From Gossypium raimondii (taxonomy: Eukaryota; Streptophyta; Magnoliopsida; Malvales; Malvaceae): a stretch of 64,000 nt of DNA. Every line of letters starts with the position of its first letter. The first letter of the stretch is position 1. The DNA is taken from NCBI RefSeq assembly GCF_025698545.1, contig NC_068567.1, positions 7,936,001-8,000,000 of the forward strand, given 5' to 3'. A program made the position numbers and the translations under genes. The notes beneath the pieces are model-generated. The model searched no databases, was not told the origin of the DNA, and saw only the letters and a list, made by a program, of their open reading frames with translations. Below are positions 55,651-61,265 of the stretch, piece after piece.

Positions 55651-56983
55651 ATTATGATTGATAGTCGTTTGTTTTGATGGTGTTTGTTCGACTGCTCACA
55701 AGAATGTGAAAGTAGCTGTAGAAGTTGAGCGGGTTTAGCTTGCGACAATCATCATTTTTGGTAGTTAATCATCAGGTGGAAAATGAAAATTTTGGTCCCT
55801 AGATGATTTCTCATTGATGATAAAGACGATCAATCGGTAATGGGAGTAGAAGAGGCTCTTGATTAATGCTGGGCCTAAGGTAGTGTTCAAGGCAGGTGGA
55901 TCAAACCGAAGATAAGGGCATTTCTTTAAATAACTGGCCCAATATATTTTTTAAATATTAATGTTGAATTTTAGGCACACATCTTTTTAATATATTTTTA
56001 ATTTACTCATTTTCATGAAATAATTATAAAAAAAAAGTAAATGAACTTAATTTGATGGTCAAGATATTTACCGACCTAAGTGTGACATTGATTCGAGTTG
56101 CGTTAGTTGCATTGTTGTTAGGGTTTTGCCCTCCTCTTATCATTTACACAAAAAAAATTCATTAATAAATACCATTATTATCATTATTTTATAAATAACA
56201 CAATTAATATAAAAAATTAATTGTATAGTACTTTACAATAATCATATATGGTTTTCTATATTATTAAATATTTTTAATTAAAAGATGAAAATGATTATAA
56301 TATTTTTTAAAAATTATTCTTATGCTTAATTAATTAAATAATTGTTTATACCATAAATGCTTCTACAAATAATCATTTACTAAATATGTACAATAATTAA
56401 AAATTAATATAAGTACATCAAACCTGATTATTTTTTTCAAAGAAATATACATACTTCAACATGTTTTTAAAAAAGATTCAGGACAAGCTTTTGACAAATT
56501 TGGTATTTCATTGAGATTTAAATTTCTCACAGAAAAATCACAGCTTTTAATTTTAAAAATCCATCCTTATATACTTTTATAAAAACAACATCAAGAATTT
56601 CATTTTTTCCAATTACATATAGAATAAAAATAGTTTATGTTTGAATTTTTTTTCATAAATAGATTATTTGAGTTTATTAAAAAATACACATCTATTTTTT
56701 TTTCGAAAACTTTCAAAACACTTACATAAATTAATAAAAGTTGCGGTCTCTTATAATTTAGATGCTTCAATGGATTTAAGTACCCTCACGTTAGAGAAGA
56801 CGATTACTACTAATGAAAATCAAAGGATGAAATGGTGATAAAAATTGTATAGATTTTAGATATTTGAAAAGATGAAAGTTAAATATCGCTTTTGGTTTCT
56901 AAGGAGGTGAAAATTTTAACCTTTTTTTTTTCAACAACACAAAGATACACTTTTTTTCAAATACAAGCTATAAAAAATGGGTT
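55651..56983. other. AT-rich intergenic DNA, no gene seen
   Basis: Only low-complexity DNA with poly-A/T runs. It separates UGT copy 2 from the Mutator-like structure. Confidence 0.5.
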
Positions 56984-57340
56984 TAGTACCAATAAAGGCC
57001 CAGTTCCGAAATTATTTTCAGAAATGGGTCGTTTCTAAAAATAATGACTTGTATAGACCGAAAATCCAAAAACATGTTGAGTGGACGCGTTTGCACGTCA
57101 GCACTTGTTTTTTTTGTGTTAGGTAAAAACACGCTGACATGGACGCACTTTAGTAAAAAGCGCTAACGAGGATGTGCTTTTAGCAGTGCAATCCCCAGTG
57201 GGTTATTTGCAAATTAGAGCCTAGGTTTAGAGTTTTGGGTTTGATTAGGGTTTAAGAAAATTTAAATTAGGGTATTAGGTTTTTAATTGTTTAAGGTTTT
57301 AGGGTTTAATTTCTTGAAAAGGACCTAGAAAAAATATATA

Positions 57341-57413
57341 TGTTGCTACCCAGGATTGAACGGGGGACCTTTAGTGTGTAAGACTAACGTGATAACCACT
57401 ACACCACAGCAAC
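57341..57413 (-). tRNA. tRNA-Val (anticodon UAC), left arm of the MULE
   Basis: On the minus strand, from 57413 down, a 72-nt cloverleaf plus discriminator A is seen. Acceptor GTTGCTG pairs with TAGCAAC (one G-T). The anticodon stem TTAGT/ACTAA is perfect. The loop CTTACAC has U33, anticodon TAC (57380-57378) and A37. The T arm has TTCAATC with one C-T mismatch in its stem. The A box TGGTGTAGTGG and B box GTTCAATCC are present. T6 (A6 on the plus strand at 57329-57334) follows within 12 nt, as a Pol III terminator. No intron. It would decode GUA. It may be a functional nuclear tRNA gene or a decaying copy carried by the element. Confidence 0.7.
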
Positions 57414-57843
57414 CTATTGATTTTAAAATTGGAATTTAATTGTAATTATGTTTAGATTTATTTAAGAAGTCACATGATAATGAATGAAAGAGGGTTAATA
57501 TACTATTTGGTATTTAATTTTAACTTTAGTATTCAATTTAGTATTTGAAGTCAACAAAAAATTAAACATTGCAAATCATTTATCACTATACCAATAGCTA
57601 TTTAATGAGATTGAGTTAGATTGGTTTACGGTTTTTGTAAACATATGGCACGATCTAATCTAAATGAGAGTATATATTAATATGCGGCGCTTTTTAATTT
57701 CGTTTATGGAGTTAAAAAAAATTCACCACCAATTTATTAAATAATTATCATAACGTAACTACTTTATAAAACATTTTCTTCACTTGAATAACAAATTTAT
57801 TAAACCTCAAACCTGGCGGAATGCATCAATTTTGTTTTAAAAG

Positions 57844-58136
57844 AAACGCGTCATTTGCCAATAACCTCAGTTGTGAAGGAGACATACTTCCGTTTGGAGG
57901 CACTATTCCCAAAACGAGTAGCGAGTTATAAATGTCAAATACAGGGAGGCCATATATGGTGCCGGAAGGTATTGCAAGAAATTAATAAGGCTAAGGCGCG
58001 AGCCAATTCCATGCATGTAGTGTGTCACGATCGCGACAACCTATAGTTTTGGGTGACAGAGCTCGACAAACTGAACCAAGGTATTGTCGACGGACAATAT
58101 CGTGTACACCTCAGAAATAGGACTTGCGACTGTGGG
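57844..58136 (+). pseudogene. MULE transposase C-terminal fragment, left arm copy
   Basis: PITSVVKETYFRLEALFPKR opens at about 57858, then CRKVLQEINKAKARANSMHV, a TAG stop at 58043-58045, QGIVDGQYRVHLRNRTCDCG and an abrupt end at 58136. This is the region leading into the SWIM zinc finger of MuDR-type transposases. It is an inverted duplicate of about 59940-60232 and shares its TAG stop. Confidence 0.8.
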
Positions 58137-58149
58137 TCATTTCATGTAT

Positions 58150-58240
58150 TTCCAAAATTATTTACGGAAATAGACCGTTTCTAAAAATAATGACGGGTAT
58201 GGACTGAAAACTCAAAAACGCATTGACGTAGACACGTTAT
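58150..58240 (+). repeat. third copy of the MULE terminus, direct to the left end
   Basis: CCAAAATTATTTACGGAAAT, GACCGTTTCTAAAAATAATG, ACGGGTATGGACTGAAAACT and a CACGTCAACG zone repeat the sequence seen at 56995-57110. It suggests that a second, partly nested element starts here. Confidence 0.75.
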
Positions 58241-58557
58241 TAGGGGATATCCCAGAAACACGCTTCCACGTCAACGTTTTTTTTGTGTCAAGCAAAAGCG
58301 CATTGATGAGGACGCATTTTTGACCTTGTAATCCCCCAACGGTCACCTCCAACGGCCATTTAAAAATCTGACCGTAGGTCCAACGGTCGGGAAAAAAAGT
58401 ATAAAAACTCCCTACAACCCATTTTTTCACACCAAATTCCAAATTTCTCTCTAAATTTCTCAAAAAAAATCTTTAAAGCTATCTAAATTTTTTTTATTTT
58501 AGTCTGAATTAGTATTATTATTTTTTATAATTTCTAAGAAATTTGATCGTGTTAGCA

Positions 58558-59412
58558 ATGGTTCGGCAATTAATTCGTCTCGATGATAAACATATCTCCG
58601 TCGACCAAATGAAAATGATAAGGGTTAATTTCATTTTTCTTAATATTATTTAATTTTTTATTTAATTTTTATAATTTAATTAATATTTTTTTATAATAGT
58701 CGGTAGATCGAGTGTTATAATGTTTTATTCGTAATCTACCTGGTCCTCCATCATCGTTGATCGAAAATTACTTGAGAGAAGCGAATTTTTGACACGTGGC
58801 TCATATAGGCCAGGGTGCAAGTTGGACCCAAAACTCAATAGCACGTTTGTGGAGAGGTGGATACCCGAGATGCACACGTTCCATTTTCCATGTGGGGAGT
58901 GTATTATCACTTTGGAGGATGTGTAGTTACAGTTGGGCTTACTAATGGATGGCTCCGTACTCACCAGGTCCGCTCAATCTACTGATTGGGGAGCCATATG
59001 TTACGATCTTTTGGGTGCGATTCTAGATATTATTTATGGAGGTCGGATCGTTATGGGCTAGTTACGAGAGAAATTCCCAATGCCGAGGGATGATTTGACC
59101 GAAGTACAAAGAGTACGATATGCTCCGGCGTACATCCTTCAGATCATCGAAGGTTATCTGATGCCGGATAAGTCACGAAACCTCGTACATCTAAGGTGAC
59201 TGCTGAAACTTATCGATTTTAGAGCAGCTGGTGAACTTAGTTGGGGGTCTACCATGTTGGCAACATTGTATCGGGAGATGTATCGGGCAACGCAACCAAA
59301 TAAAATCAACATTGGAGGTTGCCTCTTATTGCTACAATCATGGGCTTAGTTTCGCTTTCCATTTTTCCGTCCTCGAGTAAACCACCCATATACATTCCCA
59401 CTCGTAACAAGG
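58558..59412 (+). pseudogene. plant mobile domain (PMD, aminotransferase-like) pseudogene
   Basis: The start ATGGTTCGGCAATTAATTCG (58558) gives MVRQLIRLDDKHIS. After a short intron (about 58618-58700) come NLPGPPSSLIENYLREANF, FHVGSV/CTRSIFH in shifted reading, and LTRSAQSTDWGAICYDLLG; farther on GYLMPDKSRNLVHLR and LYREMYRATQPNKINIGG. These match the PMD family, found in MAIN/MAIL proteins and in Ty3 and MULE transposons. Four or more stops replace Trp codons (TGG to TGA/TAG, for example at about 58789, 59058 and 59198), and frame slips occur. It ends at a GTAAAAC donor-like site. I infer an accessory gene of the MULE. Confidence 0.75.
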
Positions 59413-59589
59413 TAAAACTTATATTAGATTTTACAATTATTAAATAGATTTAATAAAATATTTTTACGTCATCGATTTTTGAATATTTTTGTACAAATTA
59501 TTTTTATATTGTTTCATTTAATAAAATAGATGTTCTTTTGAATATTTTTATACAAATTATTTTTATATTGTTTCATTTAATAAATTAGA

Positions 59590-60250
59590 AGTTCTTTCAA
59601 TGTAGACATGTTGGCATTTTATGACTCGGGTTCCTACACCACCCGCATAACTTCTATTGGCTCGTTCTTTTCCAGATATCCATATTATCACGTATTCTAG
59701 TCGAGAACGGTGGACGTTTTGGTTTGCAAGACAATTCTCTATTCAGTAACAACTTAAACAGAGCAAGCGATACAGATGACCACTTACGTTCATTTGGGAC
59801 TGGTGGGAATACGCGTCTCCACACGTTGTACATGTATTCTAATTTGTATACTTCGTCGACATAGCTCATGGGATCCAAACTGAGATTCTGACAAGCTACA
59901 ATTACATGAGCGCATGGATAACGAGGTGCATCAAGCCTCCCACAGTCGCAAGTCCTATTTCTGAGGTGTACATGATATTGTCCATCGACAATACCTTGGT
60001 TCGGTCTGTCGAGCTCCTTCACCAAAAACTATAGGTTGTCGCGATCGTGGCACGCTACATGCATGGAATTGGCTCGCGCCTTAGCCTTATTAATTTCTTG
60101 CAATACCTTCCGGCACCATACATGACCTCCCTATATTTGACCTTTATAACTCGTTGCTCGTTTTGGGAATAGTGCCACCAAACAGAAGTATGTCTCCTTC
60201 ACAACCGAGGTTATTGGCAAATGACGCGTTTCTTTTAAAACAAAATTGAT
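59590..60250 (-). pseudogene. MULE transposase C-terminus with SWIM and CCHC zinc fingers, right arm copy
   Basis: Minus strand from about 60232: VVKETYFC, ALFPKRATSYKGQI, CRKVLQEINKAKARANSMHV, a TAG stop near 60032, then the open frame 60025-59654. The SWIM motif is complete: CDCGRLDAPRYPCAHVIVAC (C-X-C-Xn-C-X-H). YVDEVYKLEYMYNVWRRVFP follows. After a TAG near 59652 the same frame continues to a CCHC knuckle (CGWCRNPSHKMPTC, about 59600-59642). The DDE catalytic part is not present. Function lost; only the DNA-binding tail region remains. Confidence 0.85.
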
Positions 60251-60661
60251 GCATTCCGCCAGGTTTGAGGTTTAATAATTTGGTTATTCAAGTGAAGAAA
60301 ATGTTTTATAAAATAGTTACGTTATGATAATTATTTAATAAATTGGTGGTAAATGTTTTTTAACTCCATAAACGAAATTAAAAAGCGTCGCATATTAATA
60401 TATACTCTCATTTAGATTAGATCGTGCCATATGTTTACAAAAACCGTAAACCAATCTAACTCAATCTCATCAAATAGCTATTGGGATAGTGATAAAGGAT
60501 TTGCAATGTTTAATTTTTTGTTGGCTTCAAATACTAAATTAAATATTGAAGTTAAAATTAAATACCAAATAGTATATTAATCCTCTTTCATTCATTATCA
60601 TGTGACTTCTTAAATAAATCTAAACATAATTACAATTAAATTCCAATTTTAAAATCAATAG

Positions 60662-60734
60662 GTTGTTGTTGTGTAGTGGTTATCACGTTAGTCTTACACA
60701 CTAAAGGTCCCTAGTTCAATCTTGGGTAGCAACA
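60662..60734 (+). tRNA. tRNA-Val (anticodon UAC), right arm of the MULE
   Basis: 72-nt cloverleaf plus discriminator A, sharing the anticodon arm TTAGTCTTACACACTAA with the left copy. Acceptor GTTGTTG/TAGCAAC and T stem CCTAG/TTGGG form with G-T pairs only. D-arm TGTGTAGTGGTTATCAC is the same apart from G9 to T. A T7 run at 60741-60747 follows as a Pol III terminator. It differs from the left copy at about six positions, all compatible with folding. Confidence 0.65.
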
Positions 60735-60765
60735 TATATATTTTTTTCAATTTTTTTCAAAAATT

Positions 60766-61123
60766 AAACCCTAAAACCCTAAATAATTAAAAACATAATA
60801 CCCTAATTTAAAATTTCCTAAACCCTAATCAAACCCCAAAACTTTAAACCTAGGCCCTAATTTGCGAATAACCCACTAGGGATTACACAGCCAAAAGCGC
60901 GTCCACGTCAGCGCGCTTTTGCCTGACACAAGGAAAAAAGCTTTAAACCCTAAAACCCTAAATAATTAAAAACATAATACCCTAATTTAAAATTTCCTAA
61001 ACCCTAATCAAACCCCAAAACTCTAAACCTAGGCCCTAATTTGCGAATAACCCACTAAGGATTACACAGCCAAAAGCGCGTCCACGTCAGCGCGCTTTTG
61101 CCTGACACAAGGAAAAAAGCTTT
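60766..61123 (+). repeat. 179-bp tandem duplication in the right arm
   Basis: AAACCCTAAAACCCTAAATA...GGAAAAAAGCTTT occurs at 60766-60944 and again at 60945-61123 with very few differences (for example CTAGGG versus CTAAGG). The left arm has one copy. The near-identity implies a recent event. Confidence 0.9.
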
Positions 61124-61265
61124 GACATGAAAGCGTTTTTCCATGATATCCCCTAAAAGCGCGTCCACGTTAGCGCGTTTTTGGGTTTTCGGTCCATACC
61201 CGTCATTATTTTTATAAACGGCCAATTTCTGTAAATAATTTAAAAAATGACCTTTATTGGTACTA

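Follow-up and report, generated by a model that had tools for sequence, protein, structure and literature searches.

Capture of coding fragments by Mutator-like elements (MULEs) is well described (see the relevant passages of PMC13317346 and PMC8903248), and in Pack-MULEs, or MULE transduplication, host DNA is copied between the MULE termini while the donor stays in place. MULEs that carry a plant mobile domain (PMD) gene have also been described, and a section of PMC5418596 reports PMD-C members that are fused to transposases in several grasses and in Amborella. In maize, the Mu killer locus is presented in part of PMC3440606 as a partial inverted duplication of mudrA in which the TIRA region is present twice, and for which silencing by a read-through hairpin of ca. 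4 kb was proposed, and the Dada elements are, according to an excerpt of PMC3706591, DNA transposons that insert into tRNA genes. The present analysis concerns a 64-kb window of the Gossypium raimondii genome (the whole stretch of DNA analysed) which contains a compound, PMD-carrying MULE with a tRNA-Val(UAC) gene in each of its two inverted arms. A chromosomal tRNA gene and its flank have been copied inside this element and doubled there, and both copies have changed. Very probably, the gene was captured from a locus on C1, was doubled by a later inversion and is now decaying cargo in a broken element. The case is one of MULE transduplication; capture itself is known for exons, and the unusual point is that the cargo is a complete RNA polymerase III (Pol III) gene.

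As in Pack-MULEs, host sequence is found between the termini with its donor still present in the genome, although a rearrangement could also account for this since there is no target-site duplication. The cargo differs from that of Pack-MULEs in being a complete Pol III gene with its flank instead of coding exons, the listing of open reading frames (ORFs) giving no stop-to-stop ORF of at least 60 aa in the captured stretch, at which no protein-family search was aimed, and a remnant of the transposase (59601-60271) is present. Because this remnant stays and the cargo is non-coding, the element is not a Pack-MULE in the strict definition. Detection of Pack-TYPE elements, as outlined in a passage of PMC8903248, requires a match to a coding sequence (CDS), and elements that match a transposase are assigned there to the autonomous or derived ones. 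The PMD gene is a feature that the element shares with the PMD-carrying MULEs treated in part of PMC5418596; unlike in the PMD-C fusions, PMD and transposase lie on opposite strands in the window as well as in a relative on C13 (L075, see below). Like Mu killer, as depicted in part of PMC3440606, the locus is an inverted duplication comprising a terminus and part of the transposase, but its arms hold the captured tRNA gene and its loop holds the PMD gene. The association of a DNA transposon with tRNA genes recalls Dada, which, in the account excerpted from PMC3706591, inserts into such genes, whereas here the tRNA gene lies inside the element. No report of tRNA gene capture by a MULE was found in the titles and abstract openings of the open-access literature matches listed, which is weak evidence of absence, and the word start "trna" occurs 0 times in the review PMC13317346 and in PMC8903248.

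The two arms (57329-58136 and 59939-60746) are 808 nt long each and 95% identical (771/808). According to the original prediction, each of these arms has a 73-nt tRNA-Val(UAC) sequence at the corresponding place, the two being oppositely oriented, and this is borne out by ARAGORN and by Rfam RF00005. Both copies are called as tRNA-Val (tac) and are the only tRNA genes that ARAGORN calls in the window (Table 1); with E-values, calculated for the whole window, of 1.4e-9 for the left copy (56.7 bits) and 1.2e-7 for the right one (49.8 bits, for a gathering score of 29), they represent tRNA matches far beyond chance. When checked position by position, the acceptor, D, anticodon and T arms are kept by both copies, as had been stated, and the anticodon loop is CUUACAC in both, including U33, the UAC anticodon and A37. 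The U.U at pair 13-22 is found likewise in intact tRNA-Val(UAC) genes, and the mismatch already noted in the T stem of the left copy was confirmed as C.U at 52-62. By score the right copy is the more damaged of the two, with four wobble pairs, one of which (G7-U66) is also present in the left copy, and with U9 in the A box and U61 in the B box; the A and B boxes are partly retained, yet eroded, and the erosion is stronger in the right copy. A run of T was also found downstream of each copy, as expected from the first reading of the sequence (TATATATTTTTT, T6, after the left copy and TATATATTTTTTT, T7, after the right copy). As to the suggestion that the tRNA might give the element an internal Pol III promoter, both copies point outward and the run lies directly 3' of each, so that a Pol III transcript terminated at the run would stop short of the element's interior.

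The proposed capture of a nuclear tRNA gene by a MULE finds support in a search of the window's own assembly (750.8 Mb, 281 contigs, the window being C3:7936001-8000000), in which a donor locus, C1:1528447-1528926, was identified by homology on another chromosome, a large nuclear-type contig. Pairwise, this homology extends over 484 nt of the right arm (89%) and 472 nt of the left arm (ca. 90%), and the captured piece consists of a complete tRNA gene with ca. 390 bp of 5' flank and 18 bp of 3' flank. With 60272-60520 as query, all five candidates were scored. Apart from the two arms, they consist of the C1 donor (89% over 247 nt), a piece of 79 nt next to this donor and a 63-nt partial match elsewhere on C1, with no further long copy in the genome. 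For the query 60220-60660, the best 40 of 297 candidates were scored (42 rows); the first ca. 52 bases match many places, and over bases 50-439 the only long matches among those scored are the two arms and C1:1528541-1528926 (89%), elsewhere short partial matches being found (to 307-381). Because the homology was found nowhere else in the genome, the donor is, as judged from sequence comparison, the locus now at C1:1528447-1528926. Two intact and identical tRNA-Val(UAC) genes occur there in tandem, at 1528465-1528537 and 1529165-1529237, both on the minus strand. In a blastn comparison of the element with 9 kb around the donor, the captured piece and the tRNA copy next to it were matched, and all other matches were short and A/T-rich. 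In the element, the captured piece occupies the gap from 60271, where the transposase is cut, to ca. 60759, the inner edge of the terminus. As a separate observation, the tandem pair (L044, C1:1524000-1533000) is 700 bp apart and aligns over 212 nt with flank at only 79%, which indicates that the genes are kept while their flanks drift.

The 5' flank of the captured piece has 386 comparable columns. In 31 of these the two arms agree with each other against the donor, which will in some cases reflect a change in the donor itself; 11 further differences occur in one arm only, and one column is three-way. For the whole captured piece, the Kimura two-parameter (K2P) distance from the donor is 0.111 for one arm and 0.108 for the other, and the arms are 0.050 apart. 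Taken with the shared differences, these distances indicate that the capture preceded the inverted duplication, unless the arms have converted each other. Two independent captures are ruled out by the 31 flank and two tRNA differences common to the arms and by their near-identical end points.

The family to which the element belongs is Mutator-like, a classification based on its tip, on 9-bp duplications in some relatives, on the SWIM zinc finger and on the DBD_Tnp_Mut and MULE domains of relatives. Ends of the family begin with GGGTTTAGTACCAATAAAGG or a near-identical tip. Twelve distinct two-ended elements, including the present one, were compared for 9-bp target-site duplications (13 rows, L056 and L057 being one element): three match at 9/9 bases, one at 8/9, four at 7/9 (some of them A-rich) and four at 3-4/9. 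Wrongly paired flanks, a control that includes the doubled element, gave a mean of 2.98 matching bases, with seven or more in 3/156 pairs. The transposase is of the MuDR type, with a SWIM zinc finger in the remnant and the two other domains in relatives, where the MULE catalytic domain (L034, 29.4 bits) as well as DBD_Tnp_Mut (L043, 32.7 bits) were detected upstream of the remnant-like piece. For the MULE domain, the scores of L040 and L043 (17.2 and 17.9 bits) are below the cut-off of 27.6 bits. Both domains are missing on the corresponding side of the window element, in which the remnant is cut off on its N side at the start of the captured segment. Among the 21 related transposase loci, which were recruited by the remnant piece itself and of which the best match was kept for each locus, 18 have a best match to the window that starts at 60269-60272 (17 of 20 places, L022 and L023 being the same place). 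The transposase of these relatives continues beyond the place at which the remnant breaks off, and the preceding stretch is readable in frame by eye at 12 of the 21 loci. The two-ended relative L075, of 4.1 kb, has its PMD gene on one strand and DBD_Tnp_Mut on the other.

Very probably, the course of events was the following. A PMD-carrying MULE took up a chromosome piece of ca. 484 bp, the tRNA gene and its flanks, from the C1 locus. This piece is bordered on one side by a terminus, at its inner edge, and on the other by the transposase, the N-terminal part of which is missing there. Later, the captured gene, the transposase fragment and the inner terminus came to be present, inverted, at the other end as well, giving the two arms; the mechanism of this inversion, which we infer, was perhaps aberrant gap repair or recombination. 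Since the duplication, both tRNA copies may have drifted as unselected passengers, with which the rates given below are consistent without being proof.

Five identical tRNA-Val(UAC) genes of the genome provide the starting sequence for counting changes; with the donor named, the decay that followed the capture can thus be counted base by base. G57A and C66T are common to both MULE copies, the left copy additionally has A52C, and the right copy additionally has C5T, G9T, C51T and C61T. With RF00005, the other tRNA-Val(UAC) loci score 67.1 bits (the five identical genes and two variants), 64.7, 61.0 and 56.9 bits, so that the left copy lies just under the lowest of them and the right copy clearly under. 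Changes private to one copy after the split amount to 5/73 in the tRNA versus 12/386 in the 5' flank, the tRNA being the faster (Fisher p 0.17), and to 16/404 flank columns once the 3' flank is added (Fisher p 0.35; its 18 comparable columns, with four shared and four private changes, enter this second test only). These counts, which are small, give no sign of constraint on the tRNA. The substitutions had been described as compatible with the fold, and indeed only one broken pair is observed; as a sign of selection this is weak, since random placement does likewise. When the positions of the seven pooled changes were randomized and the types of base change retained, at most one pair was broken in 45% of 20,000 trials, and the figure was 20% for seven freely drawn changes with 60% transitions, so that the idea that selection is needed for the kept fold was rejected. 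In four of the five stem changes, a C that faces G has become T, which leaves a wobble pair whatever selection does. Judging from these changes, both tRNA copies are now probably pseudogenes, and they would be without function.

A different outcome, in which the MULE spreads working tRNA-Val genes through the genome, would agree with the complete cloverleaf, the UAC anticodon and the T-run that follows in both copies, and it had been proposed that the element multiplies the tRNA gene when it moves and so disperses it. The genome searches give no support to this. The captured segment has no third copy besides the donor, its search yielding only the arms, this donor and short pieces. The tRNA search (16/16 candidates scored, and 13/13 in a further search) returned 12 full-length loci, all with UAC by ARAGORN, and four partial matches outside these 12 that do not span 1-73 (C11:51766469, C8:21424744, C13:58047253 and C6:59819866); one of the four, L013, has no ARAGORN gene. 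Only 2/12 full-length loci sit in such arms, both in this element, and the eight that belong neither to the element nor to the donor pair match the element, in loci of 3 kb, over the tRNA and no more than 17 nt beside it. Likewise, the only tRNAs called by ARAGORN among 30 terminus loci, cut from 41 matches (best 40 of 81 first-look candidates scored), are the two of this element. Genome counts for repeated pieces are lower bounds because only the best candidates were scored, whereas scoring was complete for the tRNA and the captured segment. No dispersal of the captured tRNA gene is evident in this genome, and active spread is thus very improbable. Still less credible is an origin from a tRNA-derived short interspersed element (SINE), which the presence of a tRNA-like sequence within repeated DNA might bring to mind: the donor homology continues beyond the tRNA for ca. 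390 bp on the 5' side and 18 bp on the 3' side, and the tRNA matches found elsewhere have no common body, so that this origin was rejected. As a side observation on the other tRNA-Val(UAC) loci, L010 and L011 (C7:39380133 and C7:39412241) are 32 kb apart with partly similar flanks (pieces of 76-82%), and probably represent a local duplication.

The rival that deserves most attention, though we regard it as unlikely, dispenses with transposase-mediated capture: break repair, or nested insertion and deletion, would have put a copy of the tRNA locus as filler beside pieces of MULE. The compound has no target-site duplication, its right tip is degenerate, and it contains a third, truncated terminus and a 181-bp tandem duplication, all of which would fit such a history. 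On the other hand, the segment sits between terminus and transposase, the usual place of MULE captures, and was apparently in place before the arms were duplicated. A capture linked to the transposase would accordingly be favoured over filler DNA at a repair site, yet several observations weigh against the reading of the locus as decaying cargo captured by a MULE. Only 4/9 bases match where a target-site duplication of the compound would be expected and, with the right tip degenerate, the captured gene may never have moved within a transposing element; the pieces might have been brought together by a rearrangement next to it. The terminus has no sharp inner edge, since the homology begins as much as 11 bases further inward in five rows from elsewhere, and no nucleotide match to the transposase remnant was found in L075, the closest of the two-ended relatives examined. 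As for decay, L012, a locus outside such arms, scores 56.9 bits, about as low as the left copy, so that a pseudogene cannot be recognized by its score alone, and the left copy, with three changes, an intact A box and a T-run, may be under weak selection. The locus might also act in the manner of Mu killer, read-through giving a long hairpin and small interfering RNAs (siRNAs) by which relatives would be silenced; the tRNA would then have no part in the effect. The layout is of the same kind as that reported in part of PMC3440606, with a terminus and part of the transposase in inverted duplication. Between the arms 326/788 windows of 21 nt are perfect, and at least one exact 21-mer is common to the transposase part of the arms and 15/21 related loci, so that such a role is possible. 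It is nevertheless improbable: the loop measures 1.8 kb, no related locus has more than 14 exact 21-mers in common with the arms and 6/21 have none, and inverted rearrangements of elements can exist without a function.

As a single broken example without spread, the decaying tRNA cargo demonstrates that such capture happens; importance for tRNA gene number is not thereby shown. MULEs might be overlooked carriers of Pol III genes, whole tRNA genes being captured with promoter and terminator and with younger, working cases elsewhere, a broader proposition that we advance with considerable doubt. If true, capture searches that ask for coding sequence would miss captures of tRNA genes, and this locus would be one decayed case with its donor. 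The locus suggests a survey of tRNA genes within MULE termini.

The features of the compound element are listed in Table 1. After the left arm, the order is inner terminus, PMD gene on the plus strand, transposase remnant with its SWIM zinc finger on the minus strand and right terminus. The ORF in the left copy of the transposase 3' fragment contains a TSNLAECINF stretch that is found in the transposase of the family. The end of the left arm abuts the third terminus copy, which has no tip and is ca. 81% identical to the right terminus and 80% identical to the left terminus over 89 nt. The outer ca. 170 bp of the two ends are 69-79% alike, below the identity of the arms, and therefore the ends were not simply copied whole. 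For the right terminus, the limits are those of the family homology, with 60759 as the commonest inner start (16/63 rows) and 61265 as the commonest outer end.

Table 1. Features of the compound MULE and the evidence on which each is based (positions refer to the window).
Feature	Position	Strand	Evidence
Left terminus of the compound MULE, tip GGGTTTAGTACCAATAAAGG	56979..57334	+	Tip common with family ends; homology to right end and to relative L075
Captured chromosomal segment, left copy (tRNA gene and upstream flank)	57335..57806	-	90.5% over 472 nt to C1:1528459-1528926
tRNA-Val(UAC), left copy, outward	57341..57413	-	ARAGORN; Rfam 56.7 bits; 3 changes versus intact gene
MULE transposase 3' fragment, left copy; end is breakpoint of the inverted duplication	57807..58136	+	ORF 57804-58046; arm end 58136
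Inner terminus copy without outermost tip, right after left arm	58148..58335	+	Homology to both termini
Broken PMD gene region	58557..59430	+	Pfam PF10536 38.3 bits, 58735-58926
MULE transposase C-terminal remnant with SWIM zinc finger	59601..60271	-	Pfam SWIM 22.6 bits, 59654-60028
Captured chromosomal segment, right copy	60269..60752	+	89% over 484 nt to C1:1528447-1528926
tRNA-Val(UAC), right copy, outward	60662..60734	+	ARAGORN; Rfam 49.8 bits; 6 changes versus intact gene
Right terminus of the compound, outermost tip degenerate	60759..61265	+	Family homology limits

The right terminus holds a tandem duplication of 181 bp (60764-60944 and 60943-61123) whose identity of 99% indicates that it is younger than the arms. 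Finally, the PMD piece (58557-59430) gave 40 scored matches in the genome, at 81-100% identity (100% being the piece itself), these being the best 40 of 1544 first-look candidates, and it apparently belongs to a very large genomic family.

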